Positions 48,597 through 60,427 of a stretch of 64,000 bases of DNA are shown in pieces. Within the stretch, counting starts at the first letter, position 1. Every line of letters starts with the position of its first letter. The DNA is from Acidobacteriaceae bacterium KBS 83 (GTDB lineage Bacteria > Acidobacteriota > Terriglobia > Terriglobales > Acidobacteriaceae), in NCBI GenBank assembly GCA_000381585.1, contig KB906738.1, positions 248,001-312,000 of the forward strand, in the 5' to 3' direction. Below the pieces are notes generated by a model, which saw nothing but the letters and a program-made list of their open reading frames with translations, was not told where the DNA came from and did not search any database. Made by a program: the position numbers and the translations under genes.

Positions 48597-48660
48597 GGTG
48601 GGATATCGCAGAGTCAGCAGCCCAGCCAAGCGGTTGCTCTATGTCTCTGTGCTGGACATC

Positions 48661-48757
48661 GAAACTCCATCAGCTTGCCCGCAAACATGAACGTGAGCGA
48701 CCCTCGGGAGCGAACCCGACAATTCGCGCCAAAGGCGCGTCTGCCTGGATGCAAATC
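48661..48757 (-). repeat. Dispersed intergenic repeat, copy R1, abutting a stop codon
   Basis: Shared blocks, plus strand, are TTGCCCGCA, GTGAGCGAC, GGAGCGAACCC, GCGCCAAAGGCGC and TCTGCCTG, closing with GCAAAT at 48751-48756, one base before the stop codon (48758-48760) of the PRC/MgtE_N/CBS gene. GCGCC/GGCGC can form a hairpin. Related copies lie at 50.2 kb and 59.9 kb. Confidence 0.7.
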
Positions 48758-50026
48758 CTAGGTGCGGCTGCGCAGGAACGTAATCACGTCATCCGCCTCG
48801 ACGATTCCCACCAGCTTGTCGCCGCTGTTCACCACTGGCAATGTCCGCAAATTGTATTTGTCGAAGAGTTCAGCCACCTCGTCCTCATCCGTGTCCACGC
48901 GGCAATGGATAGCCTGGCCTTCAGTCAAGTCCTTCAATTGGCTCCCCGGTTGCGCCAGCATCAGTCGCAGCAGCGGCACGCTTCCTTTCAGCACGCGATG
49001 CTCGTCGATCAGGTAAACCTCGCTGACCGTCTCCGGATCTCCCTCGAACTGGCGCAACGCCTCCATCGCCTCGGACACCGTGCCCTCATGCGATACCGCG
49101 ACGAAGTCGGTCGTCATGTAGCCCGCCGCAGAATCTTCGCGGAATTCCAGCAGCTCCTCGACCTCCTGCCGCTCCTCCGGCTCCATGCTGTCGAGAATCG
49201 CGTCGGAATGCGCCTCCGGCAGGTCCGCCAGCAGGTCAGCCGCAGCATCGGGATCCATCTCTTCGACGATGTCCGCCGCGCCCTCGGAGTCGAGCGAGGA
49301 GATCAACGAACGCTGCAGCTTCGGCTCCACCTCCTCCAGCGCCTCGGCTGCCACTTCTTCGTCCAGCGTCTGGAAGACTGCTTCGCGTTCTGCCGGCGCC
49401 AGCTCTTCGAGAATGTCCGCAATATCCGCCGGATGCATCTGCGCCAGCCGCTCGTGTTCGATCTTCAGCTTCACCCGCCTCGCGGGATCCACCTCGATCA
49501 CATCCACGAACTCCCACGGGATCACCTTCGCCGGAACACGGTTCGCAATCGCAGCCACCCGCGAGGCAGGCAGCAGACCCTTCAGCATGCGCCGCGTCGC
49601 ACCGCGCAGCCCCACCTCCACCTGCGTCACCTGCAGCGGCGTGCCGCGCTCCACTGCCTGCCAGCGCAGGTCCACATCATTCACCCGCACCACCTTGCGT
49701 CCGTACACGTCGATAATCTGCCGGTCCAGCAGGTCCTGCCGCAGCAGCAGCGCATTCTCATTCTGGCTTGCCGGCAGCGGCTCGGTGCCCGACGCCATCA
49801 TCAGTCCGCCGGCCTCGGTCAAGCTCAGCGCCTGCACATCGACATACTCCCGTCCCCGCGCACTCTTCACCACCAGCGACAGCACGCGCCCCGCATCCTG
49901 CCCCGTTCCCACCACCACATCCGCCACGCGTCCGCGCATCTGCCCAGCGGCGTCCACCACCGGCGTTCCCTCTAGCAGCGTCAGGCTGCTCTCGTGGCCA
50001 TAATTCGCATGGTTGTTCGCATGCAT
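48758..50026 (-). CDS. Soluble PRC-barrel / MgtE N-domain / CBS-pair protein
   Basis: 422 residues without any membrane segment. An N-terminal PRC-barrel-like region (about 12-75, possibly a second to 180) is followed by an MgtE_N helical superhelix (about 185-285: AQMHPADIADILEELAPAER; DPDAAADLLADLPEAH) and a pair of CBS domains (about 290-420: SAAGYMTTDFVAVSHEGTVSEA; KYNLRTLPVVNSGDKLVG). In MgtE channels these two parts sense Mg2+ and gate the pore, but the pore domain is absent here. It may regulate a separate transporter; the Nramp protein 3 kb away is the obvious candidate. Confidence 0.88.
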   Translation of the reverse strand: MHANNHANYGHESSLTLLEGTPVVDAAGQMRGRVADVVVGTGQDAGRVLSLVVKSARGREYVDVQALSLTEAGGLMMASGTEPLPASQNENALLLRQDLLDRQIIDVYGRKVVRVNDVDLRWQAVERGTPLQVTQVEVGLRGATRRMLKGLLPASRVAAIANRVPAKVIPWEFVDVIEVDPARRVKLKIEHERLAQMHPADIADILEELAPAEREAVFQTLDEEVAAEALEEVEPKLQRSLISSLDSEGAADIVEEMDPDAAADLLADLPEAHSDAILDSMEPEERQEVEELLEFREDSAAGYMTTDFVAVSHEGTVSEAMEALRQFEGDPETVSEVYLIDEHRVLKGSVPLLRLMLAQPGSQLKDLTEGQAIHCRVDTDEDEVAELFDKYNLRTLPVVNSGDKLVGIVEADDVITFLRSRT

Positions 50027-50152
50027 CGGCGCGGTCTCCGAGGGAGAGTCTATTGCATTTGCCTGTTGCGGTGAGATGCAGAGATTTTATTGCGCGGTCT
50101 TCTTCGAAGAAAGACCACACACGCAACCACACCTACTCGCATGACAGTAGCT

Positions 50153-50286
50153 GAAGTGGGACTCAGCCGATTTGCCCGCAGAGCCAGATGTGAGCGACAA
50201 CGGAACGAACCCACCCTCACGCGCCCCAGGCGCTATCGCCCGTACGGCCAGTACCTCCGCAGGCGCGTCCGCCCGCATGGCGACTA
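50153..50286 (-). repeat. Dispersed intergenic repeat, copy R3, abutting a stop codon
   Basis: Plus-strand blocks ATTTGCCCGCA, TGTGAGCGAC, GGAACGAACCCA and GCGCCCCAGGCGC match R1 in order. An extra 30-40 bp segment is present before the end block GCATGGCGAC. The copy stops immediately before the stop codon (50287-50289) of the small secreted protein gene. Together with R1 it flanks the MgtE_N/CBS gene. Confidence 0.65.
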
Positions 50287-50703
50287 TTAGTGCAGCGCGG
50301 GTGGCCCCTCATGCACATGGCGGATCACGATCGTGTCGTCCTTGAACTCGACCCGGTCGTAATCGCGCCCCTGCGACTGCACATAGCAGCCGCATTCTGT
50401 GTTGGCATGGTGTGCCAGGGTAATGCCGTCTTCGGTCCCCTTCAGCTCGCGATTCGCCTGCTCCACCGCCATCTGCGCATCGCTCGCCGCCTTCGTGGTC
50501 GCGTCGGTCTTGTTTGCTTCCTGCGCTTTGCTCGCCGCATCGGCCTTCGCCTGCGCATCGGCAACCTCGTCCTTCGCTTCCTTCAACTGCTTCTGCTCGT
50601 CCGGCGTCAGCTTCTCGATGCGAACAGGCGAAGGAGCCTGCGTCGGCGTGCCAGGAGTAAGTTGGGCAGGCAGCAGCATCAGCGACAACAGCACAGTCCA
50701 CAT
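50287..50703 (-). CDS. Small secreted coiled-coil protein, unrecognised
   Basis: 138 residues: a short signal peptide (MWTVLLSLMLLPAQL), a Pro/Thr linker, then an Ala/Lys/Glu/Gln-rich coiled coil of about 65 residues (KEAKDEVADAQAKADAASKA). The C-terminus contains CGCYVQSQGRDYDRVEF. No family is recognised. The two cysteines near the end could form a disulphide or bind metal. It is in a run of small envelope proteins. Confidence 0.6.
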   Translation of the reverse strand: MWTVLLSLMLLPAQLTPGTPTQAPSPVRIEKLTPDEQKQLKEAKDEVADAQAKADAASKAQEANKTDATTKAASDAQMAVEQANRELKGTEDGITLAHHANTECGCYVQSQGRDYDRVEFKDDTIVIRHVHEGPPALH

Positions 50704-50836
50704 AACAGCATTCTCCGCTCCCTCAATCTTATCGCTCTTACGTCTCCCAACCCTGTGCCGCCCCGGATTGAGTAACCTCCAGACGCCGGAACCCGCCGGC
50801 GTATGCCGGCGAGCCCCTCGATCATGCGCTCGCCTT

Positions 50837-51163
50837 CTAGCGAACCGCCGAGTTGTGCTTGTCCTTGTCGATAGATCGCGAGATATTGTTCTGCTGGCGG
50901 GTCAGAGTCGCCTTGTCCTGTGCGGTCAAATGGCCGCCATCGGCGCGGCGCATCGCATGCTCCTCGCGGTTCACGCTGGCTTCACGGTGCTCCAGATTCC
51001 TCGTCTCCCGGCCGGTGAGCTGACCGCTGCGCACACCCTGTGCAATGCGGCCCTGCTGGTCGTTCTTGCGCTCCTGGATCGTTCGGCCGGTCACCTGGGC
51101 AAAGGCGGCGCTGGTCAAAAATGTGCAAAGTGCTGCGGCGGCAAAGAAGCGTCGTGCGGTCAT
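50837..51163 (-). CDS. Small secreted Arg/Gln-rich protein, unrecognised
   Basis: 108 residues with a signal peptide (MTARRFFAAAALCTFLTSAAFA). The mature part is highly charged and helical, rich in Arg, Gln, Asp and Asn, with short repeated turns (IAQGVRSGQLTGRE; GGHLTAQDKATLTRQQNN) that resemble calcium-binding-like or helical repeats. I do not recognise a family. GAGGAGAGA precedes the ATG. The gap to the gene at 50703 holds a GCCGGC...GCCGGC hairpin at about 50793-50809. Confidence 0.6.
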   Translation of the reverse strand: MTARRFFAAAALCTFLTSAAFAQVTGRTIQERKNDQQGRIAQGVRSGQLTGRETRNLEHREASVNREEHAMRRADGGHLTAQDKATLTRQQNNISRSIDKDKHNSAVR

Positions 51164-51455
51164 TGTGATCTCTCCTCGGTTGCTTTTGGATTGGCCAGCC
51201 CCGGCTTAGACTGGACTCTGCGTGAAGAAACCCGCTCCACTCCGTCGATGTTTCGCGCAACCTTTTGCCAAAGTGACGGTCGTAATCAGATGCGCTTGGA
51301 AAGATGGGCATCCGTCACGTGCGCCGGGGGCTTCGCGTCGGCATATCCTTGACATGGCGACAGGTTGCAAAGCAAACTGCCGAAACACGCGCTACTGCAC
51401 GCCACCGGGCTCTGCGACAGCATCCGAGGGCATAGAGGACATAAGAGGAGTGAGA

Positions 51456-51884
51456 GTGACCGGATCCAAGGCAAGCCGAATTACTTATACGCTCGATTCC
51501 TCCCTCGACAGCGTGAACCGCGTTGAGCAGACCGCCGAACAGGTGGCACAGAAAGCCGGATTTGATGATGACGAGGTCTTCCGGGTCTCCATGGCAGCAC
51601 GCGAAGCCGCGGTTAACGCCGTGCTTCACGGAAATGCATACAGTCCGGACAAGCGCATCACCGCATCCTTTGAGACGACGCCCAAATCACTCGTCATCCG
51701 TATCGCCGACCAGGGCCCCGGCCTCGATCCAGCAACCCTCCCCGATCCCCTAGCACCCGACAATCTGCTGCGCGGCTCCGGCCGCGGTATCTTTCTCATC
51801 CGCTCGTTCATGGATGAGGTAGAGTTTCGTATGCTCAACCCCGGTACTGAGCTCACCCTTATCAAGCACCTTGTAAGTGCCTAA
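51456..51884 (+). CDS. RsbW/SpoIIAB-type serine kinase (anti-sigma factor)
   Basis: 142 residues from a GTG with AGAGGAG five bases upstream (a GTG two codons earlier is also possible). The GHKL ATPase N-box is [14 protein letters not shown], the G1 box [11 protein letters not shown], and [17 protein letters not shown] closes the ATP lid. Such kinases bind a sigma factor and phosphorylate a STAS antagonist. The gene is 32 bp upstream of the STAS protein gene, the classic antagonist-kinase pairing in reversed order. Confidence 0.88.
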
Positions 51885-51916
51885 CCCGTCGCAGTCATCC
51901 TCAGGAGGATCTCTCA

Positions 51917-52267
51917 GTGAGCAGCGTTAAAATCTCGACTCGTCAGGTCGACGGTGTCACCATTTTGGACATGAGCGGCCGTATCACCCTGGGCGAAGGC
52001 AGCGTCCAACTTCGTGATGCCGTGCGCGACCTGCTGGCCAAAAGCCAGAAACACATCCTGCTCAACCTAGGCGATGTCACCTACATCGATAGCTCCGGCA
52101 TCGGTGAGCTGGTCAGCGCATTCACCACAGCCAAAAACCAGGGCGGCGAACTGAAGCTCTTGAACCTTACTCGCAAGGTTCACGATCTGCTCCAGATCAC
52201 CAAGCTCTACACCGTCTTCGACGTGAAGGACGACGAGGCCAGTGCCATCGGCGCCTTCAAAAAGTAA
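51917..52267 (+). CDS. STAS-domain anti-sigma factor antagonist (RsbV/SpoIIAA type)
   Basis: 116 residues from a GTG preceded by CAGGAGGA. The phosphorylation region [13 protein letters not shown] carries S59/S60. In the dephosphorylated form such proteins capture the RsbW-type kinase, freeing a sigma factor. With the kinase just upstream and a GAF-SpoIIE phosphatase at 24.8 kb the three parts of a partner switch are in the window. No sigma factor gene is adjacent. A strong terminator follows. Confidence 0.92.
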
Positions 52268-52283
52268 CGACTCATCGCACCAG

Positions 52284-52322
52284 ACGCAGAGAGGCTGCCC
52301 ACCATGGGCAGCCTCTCTGCGT
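52284..52322 (+). terminator. Strong hairpin terminator after the STAS gene
   Basis: An 18-bp perfect stem (52284-52301 with 52305-52322, core GCAGAGAGGCTGCCCA) with a CCA loop, followed by a weak T-rich stretch (TTACGTTT). It lies 16 bp after the STAS stop and just before the convergent ridA end. Confidence 0.8.
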
Positions 52323-52378
52323 TTACGTTTCCTGAGGTTTACGCTTCCCGAACGCTTCTTTCCCCGAACTGCGATTGA

Positions 52379-52762
52379 TTATTCGACAACTGCGATCGCA
52401 TCAATCGAGAACAGCAGCCCCTTGGGAAGAGCGACAACGGGCGTCGATCGTACCGGCGGGGATCCCGGAAAGAATTCCGTGAACAGTTCGTTCAGCTTTG
52501 AAAAAGCATCGGCGTCTGCGACAAAGCAAGTGACCTTTACTACCCGGTGCAAACCAGTCCCCGCGTCCTCAAGCACCGCGCGCAGATTGGCGAAGGCCTG
52601 ACGAGCTTGCGCTTCGAATGTTGGGCCAGCCGACAGGCCAGTCGCCGGATCTATGCCCGCCTGACCGGCGGTGAAGACGAAATTGCCTGCTCGCACAGCT
52701 TGCGAGTAGGGACCAAGTCGCGGAACACGCCTGCTGGTGATGATTTCCTCTGGCAGTGCCAT
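52379..52762 (-). CDS. RidA family enamine/imine deaminase
   Basis: 127 residues from the ATG at 52762. The family pattern is clear: GPYSQAVRAGNFVFTAGQ, and the substrate-binding Arg in PPVRSTPVVALPKG. RidA proteins hydrolyse reactive enamines such as 2-aminoacrylate released by PLP enzymes. It starts 11 bp after the lemA stop and belongs to the TPM-lemA-ridA transcript. Confidence 0.92.
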   Translation of the reverse strand: MALPEEIITSRRVPRLGPYSQAVRAGNFVFTAGQAGIDPATGLSAGPTFEAQARQAFANLRAVLEDAGTGLHRVVKVTCFVADADAFSKLNELFTEFFPGSPPVRSTPVVALPKGLLFSIDAIAVVE

Positions 52763-52773
52763 CACTACCCCCG

Positions 52774-53340
52774 TTAGAACTTCACCGCGGGCGCTGTCCG
52801 CGATGCCTCGCTCGCTTGGAAGTACGCATTGTTCGTGTGAAACCCTGCAATCCCTGCCCACAGGCTGTTCGGGAATTGCCCGATGAACGTGTTGTAGTCT
52901 CGCAGCTTCTCGTTGTATCGCCGCCGCGCCACCTGGATGCGGTTCTCCGTCCCCTCCAGTTGGTCCTGTAACGAGAGGAAGTTCTGGTTCGCCTTTAAAT
53001 CTGGATACGCCTCGGAGAGCGCCAGCAGCCGGCCCAACGCGGAATCCAATTGTCCGTTGGCCTGCATCTTGCCTTCCGGCGTCTTCGCGTTCAGGAGGCC
53101 GGCGCGCGCGTTCGCGATGTCCGCAAAAACCGTCTCCTCATGCTTCGCGTAGCCCTTCACCGTCTCCACCAGGTTCGGGATCAGGTCAGCGCGCCGCTGC
53201 AGCGTGGTATCGATGTCCGACCATGACGCCTTCACATCCGCGTCCTTGGCCACCATCTGGTTCTTCGAGCTCACATAGCTGCCGCCCACCAGCAGCAACA
53301 CCACGACCAGCACCACCCCGCCAACCAGTAAAGCCTTCAT
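52774..53340 (-). CDS. lemA: LemA family membrane protein
   Basis: 188 residues from the ATG at 53340, preceded by GAGGGAGCG. One N-terminal membrane helix (LLVGGVVLVVVLLLVGGSYV) is followed by a helical coiled domain containing the LemA signature RRADLIPNLVETVKGYAKHE and NAYFQASE. The role is unclear; lemA genes often occur beside TPM-domain genes, as here (39-bp gap). Confidence 0.92.
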   Translation of the reverse strand: MKALLVGGVVLVVVLLLVGGSYVSSKNQMVAKDADVKASWSDIDTTLQRRADLIPNLVETVKGYAKHEETVFADIANARAGLLNAKTPEGKMQANGQLDSALGRLLALSEAYPDLKANQNFLSLQDQLEGTENRIQVARRRYNEKLRDYNTFIGQFPNSLWAGIAGFHTNNAYFQASEASRTAPAVKF

Positions 53341-53379
53341 CGTTCTCGCTCCCTCGCTCAATCCGAATCCAAATTTGCA

Positions 53380-54156
53380 CTAAAACGAAGCGCCGCCGCC
53401 ACCCGAGTCGCCTCCACCGCCACCGCTGAATCCGCCACCGCCTCCACCACCTCCGCCCCAACCGCCGCCTCCACCCCAACCTCCGCCGCCGCCCCAGTAG
53501 CCGCCATAGTATCCACCCCCACGTCGGCCGCGGCCACCAAAGATCCTCGAAATCAACAGGAAGATGGCAATGACCACCAGCCATCCGATGATCGAGCCCG
53601 GCGAATGCTCCCGCTCGACCGGCTCCGGAGGCAGCTCCTTGGTGTTGTCGATTGAAACCTTCGCGTCCGTCGCAATGAGACCAGCGAGTTGCTCGCTACC
53701 GTCGGTCACGGCCGTGTTGAAATCATTTGCCAGGATCGCCGGCCGCAGCCCGCGCCCGATGCGGCCAGAGATGCTGTCGGTCACCACTCCTTCGAGTCCC
53801 AGCCCGACCTCGATCCGGCCCCGGTGGTCTTCCGTCACCAGCAGCAGCAGAATGCCACGGTTTGTCGCCTTGTCTCCAATTCCCCATTTATGAAACAGGT
53901 CGTTGGCAAACTCCTCGATCGGCTCCTCCTCGAGCGTCTTGATCGTCACGATAAAGAGCTGCGCCTTCGCCCGCTGCTCCAACTGCAAACACAGAGCATT
54001 CGTCTGATCGGTAGTCTCGGGCGACAGGACGTGCGCGAAATCGCTGACGTAGTTCGAAGGTGGCGGCAGTTTCGCGACCTGCTCCGCCCGCAATCCGCAC
54101 CAGCAGGCAAGCAGCACCAGGAACAACATCAGCAGTCGATAGCAGCGAGGGAGCAT
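53380..54156 (-). CDS. TPM-domain (YgcG-type) membrane protein with Gly-rich tail
   Basis: 258 residues from the ATG at 54156. A signal segment (LLMLFLVLLACWCGL) leads to a TPM domain (about 30-160: NYVSDFAHVLSPETTDQTNA; KWGIGDKATNRGILLLL; RGRIEVGLGLEG). Then come a membrane helix (IIGWLVVIAIFLLISRIFG) and a tail of Gly, Trp and Ser. The TPM domain is thought to bind metal or act as a phosphatase; the Gly-rich tail is typical. First gene of TPM-lemA-ridA. Confidence 0.92.
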   Translation of the reverse strand: MLPRCYRLLMLFLVLLACWCGLRAEQVAKLPPPSNYVSDFAHVLSPETTDQTNALCLQLEQRAKAQLFIVTIKTLEEEPIEEFANDLFHKWGIGDKATNRGILLLLVTEDHRGRIEVGLGLEGVVTDSISGRIGRGLRPAILANDFNTAVTDGSEQLAGLIATDAKVSIDNTKELPPEPVEREHSPGSIIGWLVVIAIFLLISRIFGGRGRRGGGYYGGYWGGGGGWGGGGGWGGGGGGGGGFSGGGGGDSGGGGASF

Positions 54157-54323
54157 CGTGTTCAATTCTAGAGTGAATTGACTAGCGCCGCTCCCATTTG
54201 CTTCTGCGACAGACACTTTCTTGCCCGATCGCGACGTCCCGGATCGTAACGCAAAGTGCCGCTCCATCGAGGCGCCCGATGAAATGGCAGGGCCGGACTC
54301 GTTATCCGTAACTAGCAATGCAA

Positions 54324-54345
54324 ACAGGGCGCTAACGCGCCCTGT
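54324..54345. terminator. Hairpin terminator candidate between DUF4142 and TPM genes
   Basis: ACAGGGCGC (54324-54332) pairs with GCGCCCTGT (54337-54345) around TAAC. On the minus strand a short T-rich stretch follows. It lies 38 bp after the stop of the DUF4142 gene. Confidence 0.6.
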
Positions 54346-54383
54346 CTCTTCGTTTCCCTGCTGGTACGGGATCTACCGTCAGG

Positions 54384-54971
54384 CTAGCTCTTCGCCTTGC
54401 CTTTGGAATCCGCAATCTGCTGGATCTGTTGCTGGTGGCTCTCAATCATTTGAAGGTCCTGTGTCACCATCTCCTTCAGTTGCGGGCTTGTCGTGTTCTT
54501 TGCCTCTTCCTTGAACGCCTTGTCGTCTTCCTTGTGAGCCTTCACCATCTCTTTGATATAAGCCTGATCGAAAGCGGGACCCGAGAGCGTCTTCAACTTC
54601 TCGATGCTCTTCAACGCGCCTTTGGACGGCGCGTCTGGCACCGGAATATTCAGACCCTGTACAGCCTGTTTGAAGTCGTCGAGCATCTTTCCGTGATCTT
54701 CCGTCATTTGCATGGCAAAATGGCGCACCTGTTCGTCGGTGCTCTTTTCGAGGGCCAGCCGTCCCATCTGAATCTCTGCGATATTCGATTCCATCGCCTT
54801 TTCGAGAAATTTCTGGTCCGCCGACGGCCCGCTGGCCATGTCGTTTTTAGGCTCCTGATTCGGACCCATTTGCTGGGTCGCCTGTCCCCCGGCCCCATGC
54901 ATCTGTGCGAATGCGGCACCCCAAGCCAGCACCCCAAGCAGCGCAACACCAGCCATTCGGTTGATCTTCAT
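54384..54971 (-). CDS. DUF4142 secreted protein (second of a pair)
   Basis: 195 residues from the ATG at 54971; GGAGG lies nine bases before it but directly abuts the in-frame ATG at 54980, so the shorter form is chosen. A signal peptide (INRMAGVALLGVLAWGAAFA) precedes a DUF4142 domain (about 50-190) of long helices, with FLEKAMESNIAEIQMGRLAL, HFAMQMTEDHGKML and QMIESHQQQIQQI. The fold is a ferritin-like helical bundle; function unknown. A paralog lies upstream. Confidence 0.9.
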   Translation of the reverse strand: MKINRMAGVALLGVLAWGAAFAQMHGAGGQATQQMGPNQEPKNDMASGPSADQKFLEKAMESNIAEIQMGRLALEKSTDEQVRHFAMQMTEDHGKMLDDFKQAVQGLNIPVPDAPSKGALKSIEKLKTLSGPAFDQAYIKEMVKAHKEDDKAFKEEAKNTTSPQLKEMVTQDLQMIESHQQQIQQIADSKGKAKS

Positions 54972-55136
54972 TTTCGCCATCCTCCATCTCGCTTAGACCG
55001 TCGCCAAAACGCCTTGGAGCGCACAGCCTCGGCGCTTCCGAACATTAGCATGAGTGGGGCCGATCGTAGCGCCTGCCAAAAGGAAAGGGGCGACGAGACG
55101 CGCCCCCAAATCTGTTCTTACCGAAAACTCCTGCGA

Positions 55137-55778
55137 TTACATCTTTGCCTTCTCGGTTCCCTTTGTCTGCGCGATCTGCTGGATCTGCTGTAGGTGGCTC
55201 TCGATGATCTGGTCAGACTGCATCGCCAGCTGCTTCAGTTGCGGGTTCTGCGTCGACTGCGCTTCCTGCTTGAACTCGCTGGCGTCGCTCTTGTGGTCCT
55301 TCACCATGTCCTTGATGTACGCCTGGTCAAAGGCATCACCAGACAGAGCCTGCATCTTGTCGATCTTCTTCTTCTGCCCTTTGGAGGGGCCATCGGGCAC
55401 CTTCACGCCCAATTGCTCGGCAACCGGCTTCAGCTGGTCCACCATCTTGCTGTGGTCATCCACCATGCGCTGTGCAAACTGTTTCACCTGATCGTCGCTG
55501 CTCTTCTGCAAGGCCAGCTTGCCCATCTCCACCTCGGCCATGCTTCCTTCCAGCGCCTTCTTCACAAACACCTTATCCATGTCAGGGCCGGCTGCCGCCA
55601 TCTGCTGGGTCTGCTGTTGTTGCTGCTGCTCCATACCCCCCGAAGGAGGAGGACTGCTGGCGCCCGGTTGTTGCATCTGCCCGCCACCGCCCGCGCTGCC
55701 GCCCGGCGCTTGCGCAAACATCGGGCTACAACACAGCGCCGCAGCCACCGCCAGATTCCACATTCGTATTCCCTTCAT
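55137..55778 (-). CDS. DUF4142 secreted protein (first of a pair)
   Basis: 213 residues. A signal peptide (RMWNLAVAAALCCSPMFAQ) is followed by a low-complexity Gly/Pro/Gln linker and a DUF4142 helical domain (about 65-205) closely similar to its neighbour (FVKKALEGSMAEVEMGKLAL; QRMVDDHSKMVDQL). GAGGAG precedes the ATG. The tandem arose by duplication; the linker differs. A periplasmic stress or envelope role is possible but unproven. Confidence 0.9.
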   Translation of the reverse strand: MKGIRMWNLAVAAALCCSPMFAQAPGGSAGGGGQMQQPGASSPPPSGGMEQQQQQQTQQMAAAGPDMDKVFVKKALEGSMAEVEMGKLALQKSSDDQVKQFAQRMVDDHSKMVDQLKPVAEQLGVKVPDGPSKGQKKKIDKMQALSGDAFDQAYIKDMVKDHKSDASEFKQEAQSTQNPQLKQLAMQSDQIIESHLQQIQQIAQTKGTEKAKM

Positions 55779-56019
55779 TGCTCAATCTCCTCGCCCTAGA
55801 TTTCTCGAGACAATGCAACGCGCGAACTCCATTCGTTCGCGCCAACTGCAAGGGGACAGTAGTCTCTCATTTAACTAAGTAGCCACCACAGCGTCCGCCG
55901 TTGCCCTCGGCGCGCAAGCCCCGCGACGTGCCACCCGGTTATCGAATTTTTCTGTCTTCCGTGAGGCAACCAATTTCCCCGCTGCTGCGCCGTATTCTCG
56001 TCGCAGATATCCTGAACTC

Positions 56020-58092
56020 ATGCCCCAGACGGTCATCTCCCAGACGCCCCTTCCTCCCGTCGCGCGCCGCGAGCCGCTCACCCACTCCCTCCACGGACAA
56101 ACCCTCCACGACGACTACGCATGGCTGCGCAACAAGGACTCCGAGGAGGTCACCACCTACCTCAAAGCCGAGAACGCCTACGCCGAGGCTTGGATGGCTC
56201 CAACCAAGCCGCTCCAGGAAACTCTCTATCGCGAAATGCTCAGCCACATCAAGGAGACCGACGAGTCCTACCCCTACCACTACGCCGGCTACTACTACTA
56301 TTCGCGTACCGTCGAAGGCTCGCAGTACACCATCTACTGCCGTCGCAAGGGCTCCATGGAAGCCGCGGAAGAGATCATCCTTGATGGCAACGAACTGGCG
56401 AAAGGCCATCCCTTCATGGCGCTCGGCGCCTTTGCCATCTCGGAAGATCAGAACCTGCTCGCCTACTCGGTCGACCACACCGGCTTCCGGCAGTACACCC
56501 TGCACATCAAAGATCTCCGCACCAGCGAGACCCTCCCCGATACTGCAGAGCGCGTCGGCTCCATCGTCTGGGCCAACGACAACACCACCCTCTTCTACTC
56601 CGTCGAGGACGAAGAAACCAAGCGCCAGCACAGGCTCTATCGCCACACACTGGGCCAGCCGCAAGCGGCAGACACGCTCGTCTTCGAAGAGCCGGACGAG
56701 CGCTTCAACCTCGGCGCCGGCAAGACCCGCGATCTGAAGTTCATCCTGCTTGAGATCGGCAGCCACACCACCAGCGAGTCCCACTACATCCCCGCATCCA
56801 ATCCCACCGCCGCCTGGACATTGATCGAGCCGCGCCGCGACAACATCGAGTACTACGCCGACCACCGCGACGGCCTCTTCTACATCCGCGCCAACGACAC
56901 CGGCCGCAACTTCCGTCTCGTCACCGCGCCGGTCAACCAGCCTGCAAGCAAGAACTGGCGTGAGCTGATTGCCCACCGCGACGACGTCATGCTCGAGGAC
57001 GTGGACCTCTTCGCCACCTTCGCCGCCATAGGCACGCGCTCAAACGGTCTGCCCCACATCGAGATCGCACCTTTTGCGGAAGCCGGCGCATTCGGCCGCG
57101 CACGCGAGATCGCGCTACCCGAGCCGGTCTACTCCGTGCACGGCGGCACCAATCCCAACTTCGCCACCACAAGCTACCGCTACGGTTACCAATCGCTGGT
57201 CACGCCGGCATCTGTCTACGAGCTCGACATCGCCAGCCACGAATCTATTCTGCGCAAGCAGCAGGAGGTGCCTGGCGGCTTCGACCGCACCCTCTATGCA
57301 TCGGAGCGCGTCTTCGCCACCGCCGAAGATGGGACGCGAGTCCCCGTCTCCATCGTTTACCGCCGCGACAGGAAGACGACCGCCAATCCCCTGCACGTTT
57401 ACGCCTACGGTTCCTACGGCTATTCATTGCCGGTCGGTTTCAACGGTAATCGCCTCAGCCTGCTCGACCGTGGCGTTGTGATGGCCTTCGCCCATATCCG
57501 CGGCGGCGGGGATATGGGCAAACCCTGGCATGACGCTGGCCGCCTCATGCAGAAGCGCAATACCTTCACCGACTTCATCGCTGCCGTGGAACACCTCACC
57601 CGCAACGGATATGGTGATCCGGCGCGCATCTCCATTGAAGGCGGCAGCGCTGGCGGCCTGCTCATGGGCGCTGTCACCAATCTGCGACCCGACTTATTCC
57701 GCGCGGTCATCTCCCACGTCCCCTTCGTGGACGTGATGAACACGATGCTCGACGCTTCGCTGCCGCTCACCGTTCCCGAGTACGAGGAGTGGGGCAATCC
57801 GAACGAGCCGGCCGCCTTCGCGTACATGCTCAGCTATTCGCCGTATGACAACCTGAAGTCTGGCACCTACCCAGCCATCCTGGTCAAAACCTCGCTCAAC
57901 GACAGTCAGGTCATGTACTGGGAGCCCGCGAAGTATGTCGCGAAGCTGCGCACTCTCAAGCACGATCAGAATCCGCTCTTGCTCTACACCAATATGGCAG
58001 CGGGACACGGCGGAGCCTCCGGCCGCTACGACTACCTGCGAGAGATCGCCTTCGACTACGCCTTCATCCTGCGCACACTAGGCGCGGAGTAG
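56020..58092 (+). CDS. Prolyl oligopeptidase family serine peptidase (oligopeptidase B-like, S9A)
   Basis: 690 residues. An N-terminal seven-bladed propeller (about 75-410) precedes an alpha/beta hydrolase domain. The catalytic triad reads S543 in IEGGSAGGLLMG, D628 in KTSLNDSQVMYWEP and H663 in AAGHGGASGRYD. The conserved GGGDMGKPWHDAGR segment is typical of oligopeptidase B, which cleaves after basic residues in short peptides. No signal peptide is present, so it acts in the cytoplasm. It is monocistronic. Confidence 0.95.
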   Translation: MPQTVISQTPLPPVARREPLTHSLHGQTLHDDYAWLRNKDSEEVTTYLKAENAYAEAWMAPTKPLQETLYREMLSHIKETDESYPYHYAGYYYYSRTVEGSQYTIYCRRKGSMEAAEEIILDGNELAKGHPFMALGAFAISEDQNLLAYSVDHTGFRQYTLHIKDLRTSETLPDTAERVGSIVWANDNTTLFYSVEDEETKRQHRLYRHTLGQPQAADTLVFEEPDERFNLGAGKTRDLKFILLEIGSHTTSESHYIPASNPTAAWTLIEPRRDNIEYYADHRDGLFYIRANDTGRNFRLVTAPVNQPASKNWRELIAHRDDVMLEDVDLFATFAAIGTRSNGLPHIEIAPFAEAGAFGRAREIALPEPVYSVHGGTNPNFATTSYRYGYQSLVTPASVYELDIASHESILRKQQEVPGGFDRTLYASERVFATAEDGTRVPVSIVYRRDRKTTANPLHVYAYGSYGYSLPVGFNGNRLSLLDRGVVMAFAHIRGGGDMGKPWHDAGRLMQKRNTFTDFIAAVEHLTRNGYGDPARISIEGGSAGGLLMGAVTNLRPDLFRAVISHVPFVDVMNTMLDASLPLTVPEYEEWGNPNEPAAFAYMLSYSPYDNLKSGTYPAILVKTSLNDSQVMYWEPAKYVAKLRTLKHDQNPLLLYTNMAAGHGGASGRYDYLREIAFDYAFILRTLGAE

Positions 58093-58122
58093 AGCGCAAA
58101 TAACTCAGACCAAAACAGAAAA

Positions 58123-58146
58123 GGCAGAGGCTCTCTGCCCTGCCTT
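58123..58146 (+). terminator. Hairpin terminator candidate after the S9 peptidase gene
   Basis: GGCAGAG (58123-58129) pairs with CTCTGCC (58133-58139), followed by CTGCCTTT. It lies 31 bp after the peptidase stop codon and may also serve the convergent lipoprotein gene. Confidence 0.55.
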
Positions 58147-58187
58147 TGTCTCTAATAATCGTCCGCAGTTTTGTTGCCGGGTACGTT

Positions 58188-59741
58188 CTACTGCGTCGCC
58201 GTCGGACAATACGGCGAAGGATCGCGCACCGGGTTGCACGGAATACCCTGCCCCGCGGCACCGCTCACCACAATGCTGTTGAATTGGCCGTTCCTGTTGC
58301 CCGGCGGCGAGTTGCTCGGGCCGCCCGCCGTTTCTGTCGTCGACCGCAACGCCATCCCGAAGCTCTGCAGGAAGATATTCGCTGATACCTGGTCCGTATC
58401 CGTGCGGATCGCCGTGATGTACTGGCTGTCTTTCGAGAGCACATACACCGTACCCGTGCCGATCCCGGATATCGACGCCAGCGCGTCCGGATGCGCGCCA
58501 CCATAGACGGGAATCGTACCCGTAACGACGAAGCTCTTGAGGTCCACCACTGACACCGTACCGTCGGTCTGGTTCGCCACATAGGCACGCGAGCCATCCT
58601 GGAGCACCGTCACCGCAACCGGTCCCTTGCCCACGCGGATCGTGTGCGTCTGGCCAAAGGTTGGGCCGTCGTTTCCGTAAATGTCCAGCCCTACGCTGAT
58701 CACCGTCACCGTATTCGAGTCATAGTTCGCCGTCACCAGCAATCCGGCCGGCTGATAGAGCGCCGCCTGCACCGGCCCGAGTCCCGGCACCGACCCTGTG
58801 CCCAGCGAGAGCGTCGGATGCAGCGAGTCGATCGCGTTCTGCTGCACGTTGATGACGGTCACGTTGTTGCTCCCCCGATTCAGGATGAACGCGCGGTTGT
58901 TATCACCCGACATGATTCCAAAGACCGGGCAGATTCCCACAGGTAAGTACGCATCGACGGTGTTCACCGTCGTCTCCAGCGACGCTATTTCCCCGGGTGT
59001 GGTTACGGAACCAGGCGTATTGCACGCATTGATGGGCAGCGCCACCGACGCGCCCGTGCCGCTGGTCGCTCTCGACTGTCCCTGGCTGATGGCGTAAACC
59101 CGGCTCGAGAGTGGTGTTCCGGCGAACTGCACCGGGTTCGGCGCAATCGGAATCTCCTGTTGCAACGCCGGCGCCGTGGCCACAGAGCCGGCGGTCGCCG
59201 GAGGCACCTGCAGTGTCAGCACCGCAAGCGCGGCATTCACCGCCGCCGGAGTCGTCGGCGACAGTGGACTGTACGGCTCCAGGAGATAAATGTCGTTGGT
59301 GCCCACGAAAATTCCTGTCGGATTCGATCCCCCGGTCAACGTGGAATTCGTCACGTGGGAGGTCTGCAACCCGAAGCTCGTGCTCACTGTCGTCGGCGGG
59401 GAGGTCGGATAGGCATCGAGCGTCACATCCGTGTTGCCGTTGCTGTTCAGGCTGTAGCCGGTGCTCCCGCTGCTGTTCAAAGCGAACGAGAAGACGCCGT
59501 TGCCCAGCGTTGCCTGCGCCACGATCGTATCCCCCGGTCCATTGATCAACGTGGCCAGTCCGCTGGTGGCGGGGCTGTTCACCGACAGCACGATGAAGTT
59601 GGCGTTGGGATTTTGTGACGCGGGGCCAGTCGGATTTACCGGCGTAACGACAGGACGATATTCGGCACCACAACCGCTTAGCAGGCCCAACAGGCCCACG
59701 GCTGCAAGCCACGGGGCCACGGCCCCTGCTCGACTCAGCAC
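58188..59741 (-). CDS. YncE-like beta-propeller lipoprotein
   Basis: 517 residues from a GTG with GAGG upstream. The lipobox is LLSGC, with the cysteine at about residue 24. A Pro/Asn-rich linker is followed by beta-propeller repeats with the YVTN/YncE pattern (RAFILNRGSNNVTVINVQQN; LLVTANYDSNTVTVISVG; RAYVANQTDGTVSVVDLKSF; TVYVLSKDSQYITAIRTDTD). It should be anchored in the outer or inner membrane facing the periplasm. The ligand is unknown. Confidence 0.85.
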   Translation of the reverse strand: MLSRAGAVAPWLAAVGLLGLLSGCGAEYRPVVTPVNPTGPASQNPNANFIVLSVNSPATSGLATLINGPGDTIVAQATLGNGVFSFALNSSGSTGYSLNSNGNTDVTLDAYPTSPPTTVSTSFGLQTSHVTNSTLTGGSNPTGIFVGTNDIYLLEPYSPLSPTTPAAVNAALAVLTLQVPPATAGSVATAPALQQEIPIAPNPVQFAGTPLSSRVYAISQGQSRATSGTGASVALPINACNTPGSVTTPGEIASLETTVNTVDAYLPVGICPVFGIMSGDNNRAFILNRGSNNVTVINVQQNAIDSLHPTLSLGTGSVPGLGPVQAALYQPAGLLVTANYDSNTVTVISVGLDIYGNDGPTFGQTHTIRVGKGPVAVTVLQDGSRAYVANQTDGTVSVVDLKSFVVTGTIPVYGGAHPDALASISGIGTGTVYVLSKDSQYITAIRTDTDQVSANIFLQSFGMALRSTTETAGGPSNSPPGNRNGQFNSIVVSGAAGQGIPCNPVRDPSPYCPTATQ

Positions 59742-59876
59742 TCGCTTCTACCTCATCTACAACAGATTCTTCGAGATTCTTCTCTGGGATTGTAAATCAG
59801 CGCACGTCCGAGTGAACGAAACGACAGCCGTGCCGCTGCTGGCGTGTCGCAGAAATCAATGGCACAAGTTGTCATC

Positions 59877-59935
59877 CGGACCGAAGCGAACCCCACGAAA
59901 CGCGCGAAAGGCGCATCTGCCTGCATGGCAAATGC
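59877..59935 (-). repeat. Dispersed intergenic repeat, copy R2, abutting a stop codon
   Basis: Plus-strand blocks AGCGAACCCCAC, CGCGCGAAAGGCGC and ATCTGCCTGCATGGCAAAT match R1 closely; between AAAGGCGC and CAAAT only about three differences are seen over 27 bp. The 5' half is diverged. The copy ends two bases before the stop codon (59936-59938) of the GNAT gene. Confidence 0.7.
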
Positions 59936-60427
59936 TTAGCCATGCTTCTGCTCCACATGCTCCGCACGCGGATGAAGCGACTTGCGCAGAAACACCGTCG
60001 CCTGCGGGTTGCGGTTGTAACGCTCGCAGACTTCATAGCCATGACGGTCATAGAAACGCCGCGCCGCCTTCAGGTCCTCTTTCGAGTCCAGGTACAGCCA
60101 CTCGTAGCCGCTGGCTTCCGCATACTGTTCCAACGCGACGAGGAGCGCCAGTGCTGCGCCTGAGCCACGAAACTCCGGGCGCACATACAGCCGCTTGATC
60201 TCGGCCGCCTGCTCTATCGAGCGCAGCGGCCGCAGCGCAATGCATCCCGCTACCTGTTTGCCCGCTTGTGCCAGCCACAATCCAGCGCCGGGACCGAAGT
60301 AGTCCTTGTCAAAGCTCTCTGGCGAATCCCGCACCATCACGTCAACCGCGTCGTTGTACTCCTTGACCAGTTGGAACGCCGTCTCGCGGTCCCTCTCGCT
60401 TGCCCGCCACACTCGCAGCTCTGTCAT
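59936..60427 (-). CDS. GNAT-family N-acetyltransferase
   Basis: 163 residues. The acetyl-CoA-binding motif A is IKRLYVRPEFRGSGAALALLVALEQYAEASGY (RxxGxA type), followed by LYLDSKEDLKAARRFYDRHGY. The acceptor substrate is unknown. GAGGAT precedes the ATG. Its stop codon adjoins repeat R2. Confidence 0.88.
   Translation of the reverse strand: MTELRVWRASERDRETAFQLVKEYNDAVDVMVRDSPESFDKDYFGPGAGLWLAQAGKQVAGCIALRPLRSIEQAAEIKRLYVRPEFRGSGAALALLVALEQYAEASGYEWLYLDSKEDLKAARRFYDRHGYEVCERYNRNPQATVFLRKSLHPRAEHVEQKHG

Follow-up and report, generated by a model that had tools for sequence, protein, structure and literature searches.

A REP-like repeat family of Acidobacteriaceae, probably mobile, whose hairpin heads lie flush with stop codons or close to -10-like boxes

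The DNA analysed here is a stretch of 64,000 nucleotides from Acidobacteriaceae bacterium KBS 83 (assembly GCA_000381585.1, contig KB906738.1, positions 248,001 to 312,000), referred to throughout as the window. It carries three copies (R1, R2 and R3) of an intergenic repeat, each located 3' of a gene on the minus strand, as a sequence-only reading of the window had proposed, and no further copy was found in the window. The repeat begins with a small hairpin, the head, which in many copies abuts a stop codon to the base where it faces a gene end and lies close to a -10-like box where it faces a gene start. We interpret the family as a probable mobile element related in kind to repetitive extragenic palindromes (REPs) and bacterial interspersed mosaic elements (BIMEs).

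Three copies in the window

R1 is a full-length copy of 127 bp that closes with a degenerate CCCATGTC..GACATGGGGCACCC hairpin, and its first base, 48758, is the final G of the TAG stop codon of the gene for an MgtE_N/CBS protein (offset -1). R2 has lost its middle and measures 66 bp, with its 5' end at 59935, immediately 3' of the TAA at 59936-59938 (offset 0). R3 has a duplicated head: a degenerate first unit directly follows the TAA at 50287-50289 and a better second unit starts at 50254, 32 nt further; similar tandem heads occur at three other loci (L113, L128 and L129). The copies had initially been placed 1-6 bp after the stop codons; the link to the stops holds, and that distance proves slightly too large. 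R1 and R2 are similar at 50.9 bits, while simulated windows (n = 60) reached a maximum of 31.9, and a covariance model (CM) run on the whole genome scored R1, R2 and R3 at 80, 64 and 57 bits, respectively. No Rfam model matched the repeats in the window, where a tRNA was the sole match. The features are as follows.

48632..48758, minus strand: R1, full-length copy, 127 bp; CM match 48673-48758, 80 bits, 3' end taken from the degenerate CCCATGTC/GACAT module; absent from the sister species' orthologous spacer
48747..48758, minus strand: R1 head hairpin GGAT-TTGC-ATCC (helix 1), a covarying 4-bp stem
48725..48739, minus strand: R1 second hairpin CGCGCC-TTT-GGCGCG, from the sequence; 86% of cells paired among 24 copies
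48693..48717, minus strand: R1 B module GGGTTCGCTCCCGAGGGTCGCTCAC, from the 24-copy alignment
48632..48664, minus strand: R1 3' module, degenerate TCCCATGTC..GACATGGGGCACCC hairpin, by comparison with the sequences of other copies
50170..50254, minus strand: R3 main unit, GTAC-TGGCC-GTAC head hairpin plus B module; CM match, 57 bits
50255..50286, minus strand: R3 extra degenerate head unit after the TAA, from the sequence; like the tandem heads at L113, L128 and L129
59870..59935, minus strand: R2, shortened, head GCAT-TTGCC-ATGC joined to the GGATGACA 3' module; CM match 59848-59935, 64 bits
48758..50026, minus strand: gene for a PRC-barrel/MgtE_N/CBS protein (Pfam), its stop codon overlapped by one base by R1
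50287..50703, minus strand: gene before R3, an open reading frame (ORF) of 138 amino acids matching no Pfam family
59936..60427, minus strand: gene before R2, a GNAT acetyltransferase (Pfam)

Anatomy and covariation of the repeat

The unit is directional and comprises, from 5' to 3', a head hairpin of the form NNNN-YTGCC-N'N'N'N', the bases RGGC, a GCGCC/GGCGC hairpin (suspected from the window alone and borne out by the other copies) and a 3' hairpin; in this genus it also has, before the 3' hairpin, the block GGTTCGCTYCCTTTGGTCGCTCAC with its partner GTGGGCGACC. The 3' hairpin is exchangeable and occurs in several types (GCAGGTCCTTCGCTTCGCTCAGGATGACA, GCAGATCTCTCC..GGTCGAGATGAC and CCCATGTC..GACATGGGGCACCC), and the unit's 3' end is GGATGACA or GGGGCACCC. 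A 3' module was recognised in 56 of 122 copies as against 9.5% of control windows, and the copies of the genus that have one show a modal total length of 123-128 bp. With its 39 nt, two hairpins and many extragenic copies, the head is a palindromic unit within the 20-65 nt given for REPs. The ends ATTTGCC and GGCAAAT had been taken for terminal inverted repeats, a view that we abandon: ATTTGC(C) belongs to the covarying head hairpin, the distal GGCAAAT occurs in R3 alone, and the two ends of the consensus (GGAY.. and ..GGATGACA/GGGGCACCC) lack complementarity. Clusters consist of head-to-tail tandem heads or of copies nested inside older copies, inverted pairs being represented by weak matches only (L303 and L315). 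At some start-facing copies (L137, L191, L185 and L202) the B block is a perfect inverted repeat (GGGTGC-TCCCTTTGGTC-GCACCC, GGCGGC..GCCGCC), which suggests a subfamily.

In 103 of 122 copies the 4-bp stem of the head is paired throughout, compared with 45.5 when the arms are shuffled (maximum 57; kinship among copies is left uncorrected in these shuffles), and 15 distinct fully paired stems occur. Pairing is alike in stop-flush (41/49) and start-facing (40/46) copies. Since the folding energies of R1 to R3, as RNA or as DNA, are not stronger than those of shuffled sequences, it is the covariation that carries the structural case. RNAalifold by itself preferred a TGCC/GGCA pairing to the head stem, and the GCC of the loop and the GGC that follows are paired in 96% of cells and never variable on both sides; these bases may form a pseudoknot or an alternative hairpin. 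At one orthologous pair of gene ends (L107:11578 and L169:7746) the stem changes from GGAC/GTCC to GGAT/ATCC and the stop codon within the loop from TGA to TAG, which supports compensation in place and would also be compatible with replacement by another copy.

Family size and distribution

BLAST searches with R1 and with a consensus as queries returned dozens of copies from the 6.25-Mb genome. The covariance model, built from 24 copies and applied with a cut-off of E<=0.01 (these E-values are rough), found at least 48 copies in this genome and 87 in one sister species, two independent assemblies of the genus, with scores of up to 99 bits. The proposal of a dispersed family is thus upheld, and of the two outcomes that had been named as fatal to it, a search of the genome with no more copies or with copies placed at random, neither was seen: copies are many and their placement is non-random.

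The head extends well beyond the genus. Its 17-mer, GGACTNGCCGTCCAGGC, is present in 43 of the 200 Acidobacteriaceae genomes scanned and in 17 of 79 genera, with at most 93 copies per genome, while the reversed control gave none; exact heads number 16-93 each in element-rich genomes such as G204, G052, G156 and G082. A family restricted to the genus, considered at one stage, is overturned for the head by its presence in 17 genera, and only the composite of head and B block looks genus-specific. When 84,980 genomes were scanned for the B block, 21 stretches came from 'Acidobacteriaceae bacterium isolate BP_1', and two unrelated genomes showed similar low-complexity repeats. These two, of Mangrovibacterium marinum (L268) and Salinarchaeum laminariae (L257), have repeats of similar TTCGCTCCCTTCGGTCGCTCAC or GCAATGACG type. 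The GGATGACA 3' module is reminiscent of CGTC-type REPs in reverse and may constitute a separate and much wider family. One IMG/VR contig bears a longer head pattern, and the search for carriage on plasmids gave no match. Among open-access papers we found no account of this family in Acidobacteria.

Placement against stop codons and -10-like boxes

Genes were called with our own codon-usage caller and all placements were computed. The genus-level count covered 66 stop-facing copies for which both neighbouring genes were called, and in 32 of these the 5' head lies at -1 to +2 nt of a same-strand stop codon, compared with 2.4 expected from uniform placement within spacers, a result that amply sustains the tight link to stop codons proposed at the outset. 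A further group lies at -7, where the loop of the hairpin contains the stop codon (GGAC-TAG-CC-GTCC or GGAC-TGA-CC-GTCC). Among 127 copies largely from other genera, 24 lie at 0, 16 at -1 (TA|G) and 10 at -7 (TAG in the loop), and 42.5% are flush, as against 3.0% for random positions of the same sequences. The 3' ends are far less flush, lying mostly 5-90 nt from the facing stop with no sharp peak. Related membrane-protein tails of the form ..DPMEALR.E* (permease-like) bear the element at their stop in different genera (L358, L383, L421, L407 and L106), a recurrent host gene family.

Orientation between co-directional genes is unbiased, with 30 copies on the same strand and 27 on the opposite strand in the genus and 12 and 13 in other genera, for a total of 42 versus 40. 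Convergent spacers are preferred to divergent ones (36 versus 11 and 24 versus 3), as with other REPs. A reversed copy faces the start of a gene, and in 22 of 56 such copies the head has a TANNNT box at most 12 nt away on the gene's strand, a count that falls to 0-7 when the test is shifted upstream. Many of the genes adjoining start-facing copies (for example at L203, L154 and L173) seem to carry their -10 box very close to the start codon, only a few bases upstream of it, in the manner of leaderless transcripts. Positions -4 to -1 before the head do not read GTAG or CGTC; in start-facing copies a loose T-C-A/G-G trend is seen there. No U-tract terminator-like site is present in R1, R2 or R3, and an intrinsic (Rho-independent) terminator was rejected on this ground and on that of the unbiased orientation.

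Presence, absence and retention between species

Orthologous gene ends in the sister species were located by concatenated flanks and then aligned, at about 85-90% identity. At the R1 site the homologous blocks are 163 bp apart in this genome and 15 bp apart in the sister species, where two convergent stop codons are separated by 13 bp, and R3 is likewise missing from the sister, with a difference of about 150 bp. About 10 more sites differ by some 90-215 bp, giving about 12 in all, each difference corresponding to roughly one element length. Most clean cases have a short spacer in the sister, of 0-47 bp, and species-specific copies are already flush. About 20 sites are common to both species, and some of the copies there have decayed (L177/L109 and L138/L154), suggesting that not all copies are maintained. 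At L126 (G000:C8:332600-337700) the gap from the stop codon to the head hairpin is filled exactly by a stretch of 113 bp whose inverted ends read ACCGTTTTCACAAA..TTTGTGAAAACGGT, whereas the head of the sister copy, L164, is flush at the stop. The stretch looks like a separate insertion resembling a miniature inverted-repeat transposable element (MITE).

Origin of the placement

Our preferred reading, to which we assign a probability of roughly 0.6, is that R1 to R3 belong to a REP/BIME-like mobile repeat of Acidobacteriaceae that is non-autonomous and headed by a hairpin. Copies would enter short intergenic spacers in either orientation, and in a large share of cases the head would land at the edge of functional sequence, a stop codon where it faces a gene end and a -10-like box where it faces a gene start. 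We infer that a trans-acting enzyme binds the head hairpin and joins it beside short triplets rich in T/A, most of which would be stop codons and -10 boxes in genomes as compact and GC-rich as these, and that selection removes copies placed elsewhere. The contrast between sharp 5' and loose 3' ends, together with the symmetry of orientation, favours directional insertion, and the mode of insertion rather than any part in finishing genes probably accounts for the placement.

Several observations weigh against this reading. No transposase or other mobilising enzyme has been linked to the element. Most relatives have Y1_Tnp genes, but neither a flanking head hairpin nor a credible model match was found at the Y1_Tnp loci searched in this genome, its sister, relatives and element-rich genomes (30 by model, 14 by head-hairpin scan), and none of 12 Y1_Tnp genes in element-rich genomes is flanked by a head hairpin; mobilisation of the RAYT (REP-associated tyrosine transposase) or IS200 type is thus unsupported at these loci. 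The sole Y1_Tnp-like gene of this genome and of its sister (L027, G000:C1:588868-589161, and L285, G001) has no canonical HUH motif and no flanking copy; it shows DRFHL at the place of the expected NHVH-type motif and stops short of the usual tyrosine region, and is possibly a domesticated relic. The spacers of the two species are too diverged for a target duplication to be read at the roughly 12 presence/absence pairs or for a fixed target motif to be defined, and the pairs are unpolarised, so that loss in one species could also explain them. Finally, six groups of orthologous gene ends bear the element in more than one genus, where about 0.8 pairs would be expected by chance (a rough estimate that assumes about 4,000 genes), which suggests long retention and possibly function.

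The rival that survives best, which we nevertheless regard as unlikely, is that the repeat is a functional element of the 3' untranslated region, in which a hairpin at or around the stop codon would govern termination, mRNA stability or 3'-end formation and selection would keep its position. Flush stops, including those at a constant place in the loop, are what it would predict, and, as reported in PMC12306157, E. coli REPs lower translation when located no more than 15 nt from a stop (Liang et al. 2015). The retention at orthologous gene ends across genera, for example after the GroEL-like tail GGMEGMY* and after EILCEVW*, together with the in-place compensation indicated by the L107/L169 pair, provides the main evidence for function in some copies. 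However, start-facing copies keep their stem pairing equally, sister orthologues have no element at many gene ends, and R1 to R3 have neither U-tract terminators nor RNA folding stronger than that of shuffles. Because the two orientations are balanced between co-directional genes and reversed copies lie at -10-like boxes, a function at gene 3' ends is disfavoured as the cause of placement. The sequence-only reading had offered both meanings, insertion targeted to gene ends and a role in 3'-end formation, and it is the former that the evidence supports better. For the same-strand half of the copies it is plausible, by analogy with E. coli REPs close to stop codons, that they additionally act on the upstream gene by slowing termination or protecting its mRNA; such an action would not be the reason for their placement.

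Doubtful to a somewhat greater degree is random insertion into spacers followed by loss of the neutral leftover sequence in compact genomes, which would leave the repeat flush with whatever is selected, be it a stop codon or a -10 box; the -1 and -7 classes would then be cases of over-trimming rescued by stops made from the element's own bases. Such trimming would account for flushness in both orientations and fits the short sister spacers, and the only in-frame stops that the head can provide lie at -1 and -7, exactly where the extra peaks are. It predicts equally flush 3' ends, however, contrary to what is observed, it requires strong selection on the head but none on the adjoining bases, and it sits poorly with species-specific copies that are flush already. 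Chance similarity or an assembly or annotation artefact is so improbable that it can be set aside: GC-rich low-complexity blocks such as TTCGCTTCGCTC do recur in unrelated genomes (L257 and L268), but the idea is refuted by the copy numbers in two independent assemblies, by the CM scores and by the absence of reversed-control matches in 200 genomes.

A further reading is speculative and, we think, improbable: an undescribed class of mobile hairpin elements across a bacterial family, whose insertion machinery, with a putative enzyme, would read the edge of functional sequence (stops and -10 boxes), would be precise to a single base at stops and would sometimes rebuild the stop in its own loop. 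The family offers a clean case, with many copies, in which the spacing of repeat and stop is constant to a single base in several genera. It makes directly testable the old question of whether REP-like repeats occupy gene ends for what they do there or simply by landing there, with the reversed copies as a natural control.

Comparison with known repeat systems

In being about 127 bp long, non-coding, intergenic and dispersed, the repeat resembles MITEs and the RU repeats (IRU, ERIC-like), and differs from them in having no terminal inverted repeats and no visible target duplication in spacers too diverged to reveal one. The acidobacterial TIRYT and class 3 TnpA-Y1 terminal inverted repeats (PMC3733652, PMC6006769) are dispersed repeats of the same phylum attributed to Y1 transposases; the Y1_Tnp loci considered above, in contrast, bear neither the head hairpin nor a credible model match, and those terminal repeats were compared by description only. 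E. coli REPs near stop codons, which stall ribosomes according to Liang, Rudd & Deutscher (2015, as cited in PMC12306157), share with the present family a hairpin close behind the stop, and our flush copies lie within the same 15 nt, but here the offset is 0, -1 or -7 nt, and copies between co-directional genes are reversed about as often as not.

The closest likeness is to the REPs and BIMEs of the GTAG and CGTC superfamilies (PMC3733652; Nunvar et al. 2010, PMC2817692), which are likewise short GC-rich palindromes found in many convergent and co-directional intergenic spacers, singly and in clusters, near or overlapping ORFs, and with palindromes kept by compensatory change; GTAG termini are also reported to give TAG stops to flanking ORFs (Di Nocera et al. 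2013, PMC3733652). Unlike these, the head described here has no GTAG or CGTC tag and instead a free 4-bp stem around a conserved YTGCC loop followed by GGC, and, unlike GTAG-type REPs, the element does not flank a RAYT at the Y1_Tnp loci examined. Because tag and RAYT association are lacking, we do not file the family in either superfamily. Its unit is longer, directional and multi-hairpin, with exchangeable 3' modules, and one of its ends is flush to a single base with stop codons or, when reversed, close to -10-like boxes. It is an abundant repeat family of Acidobacteriota outside the two described REP superfamilies.

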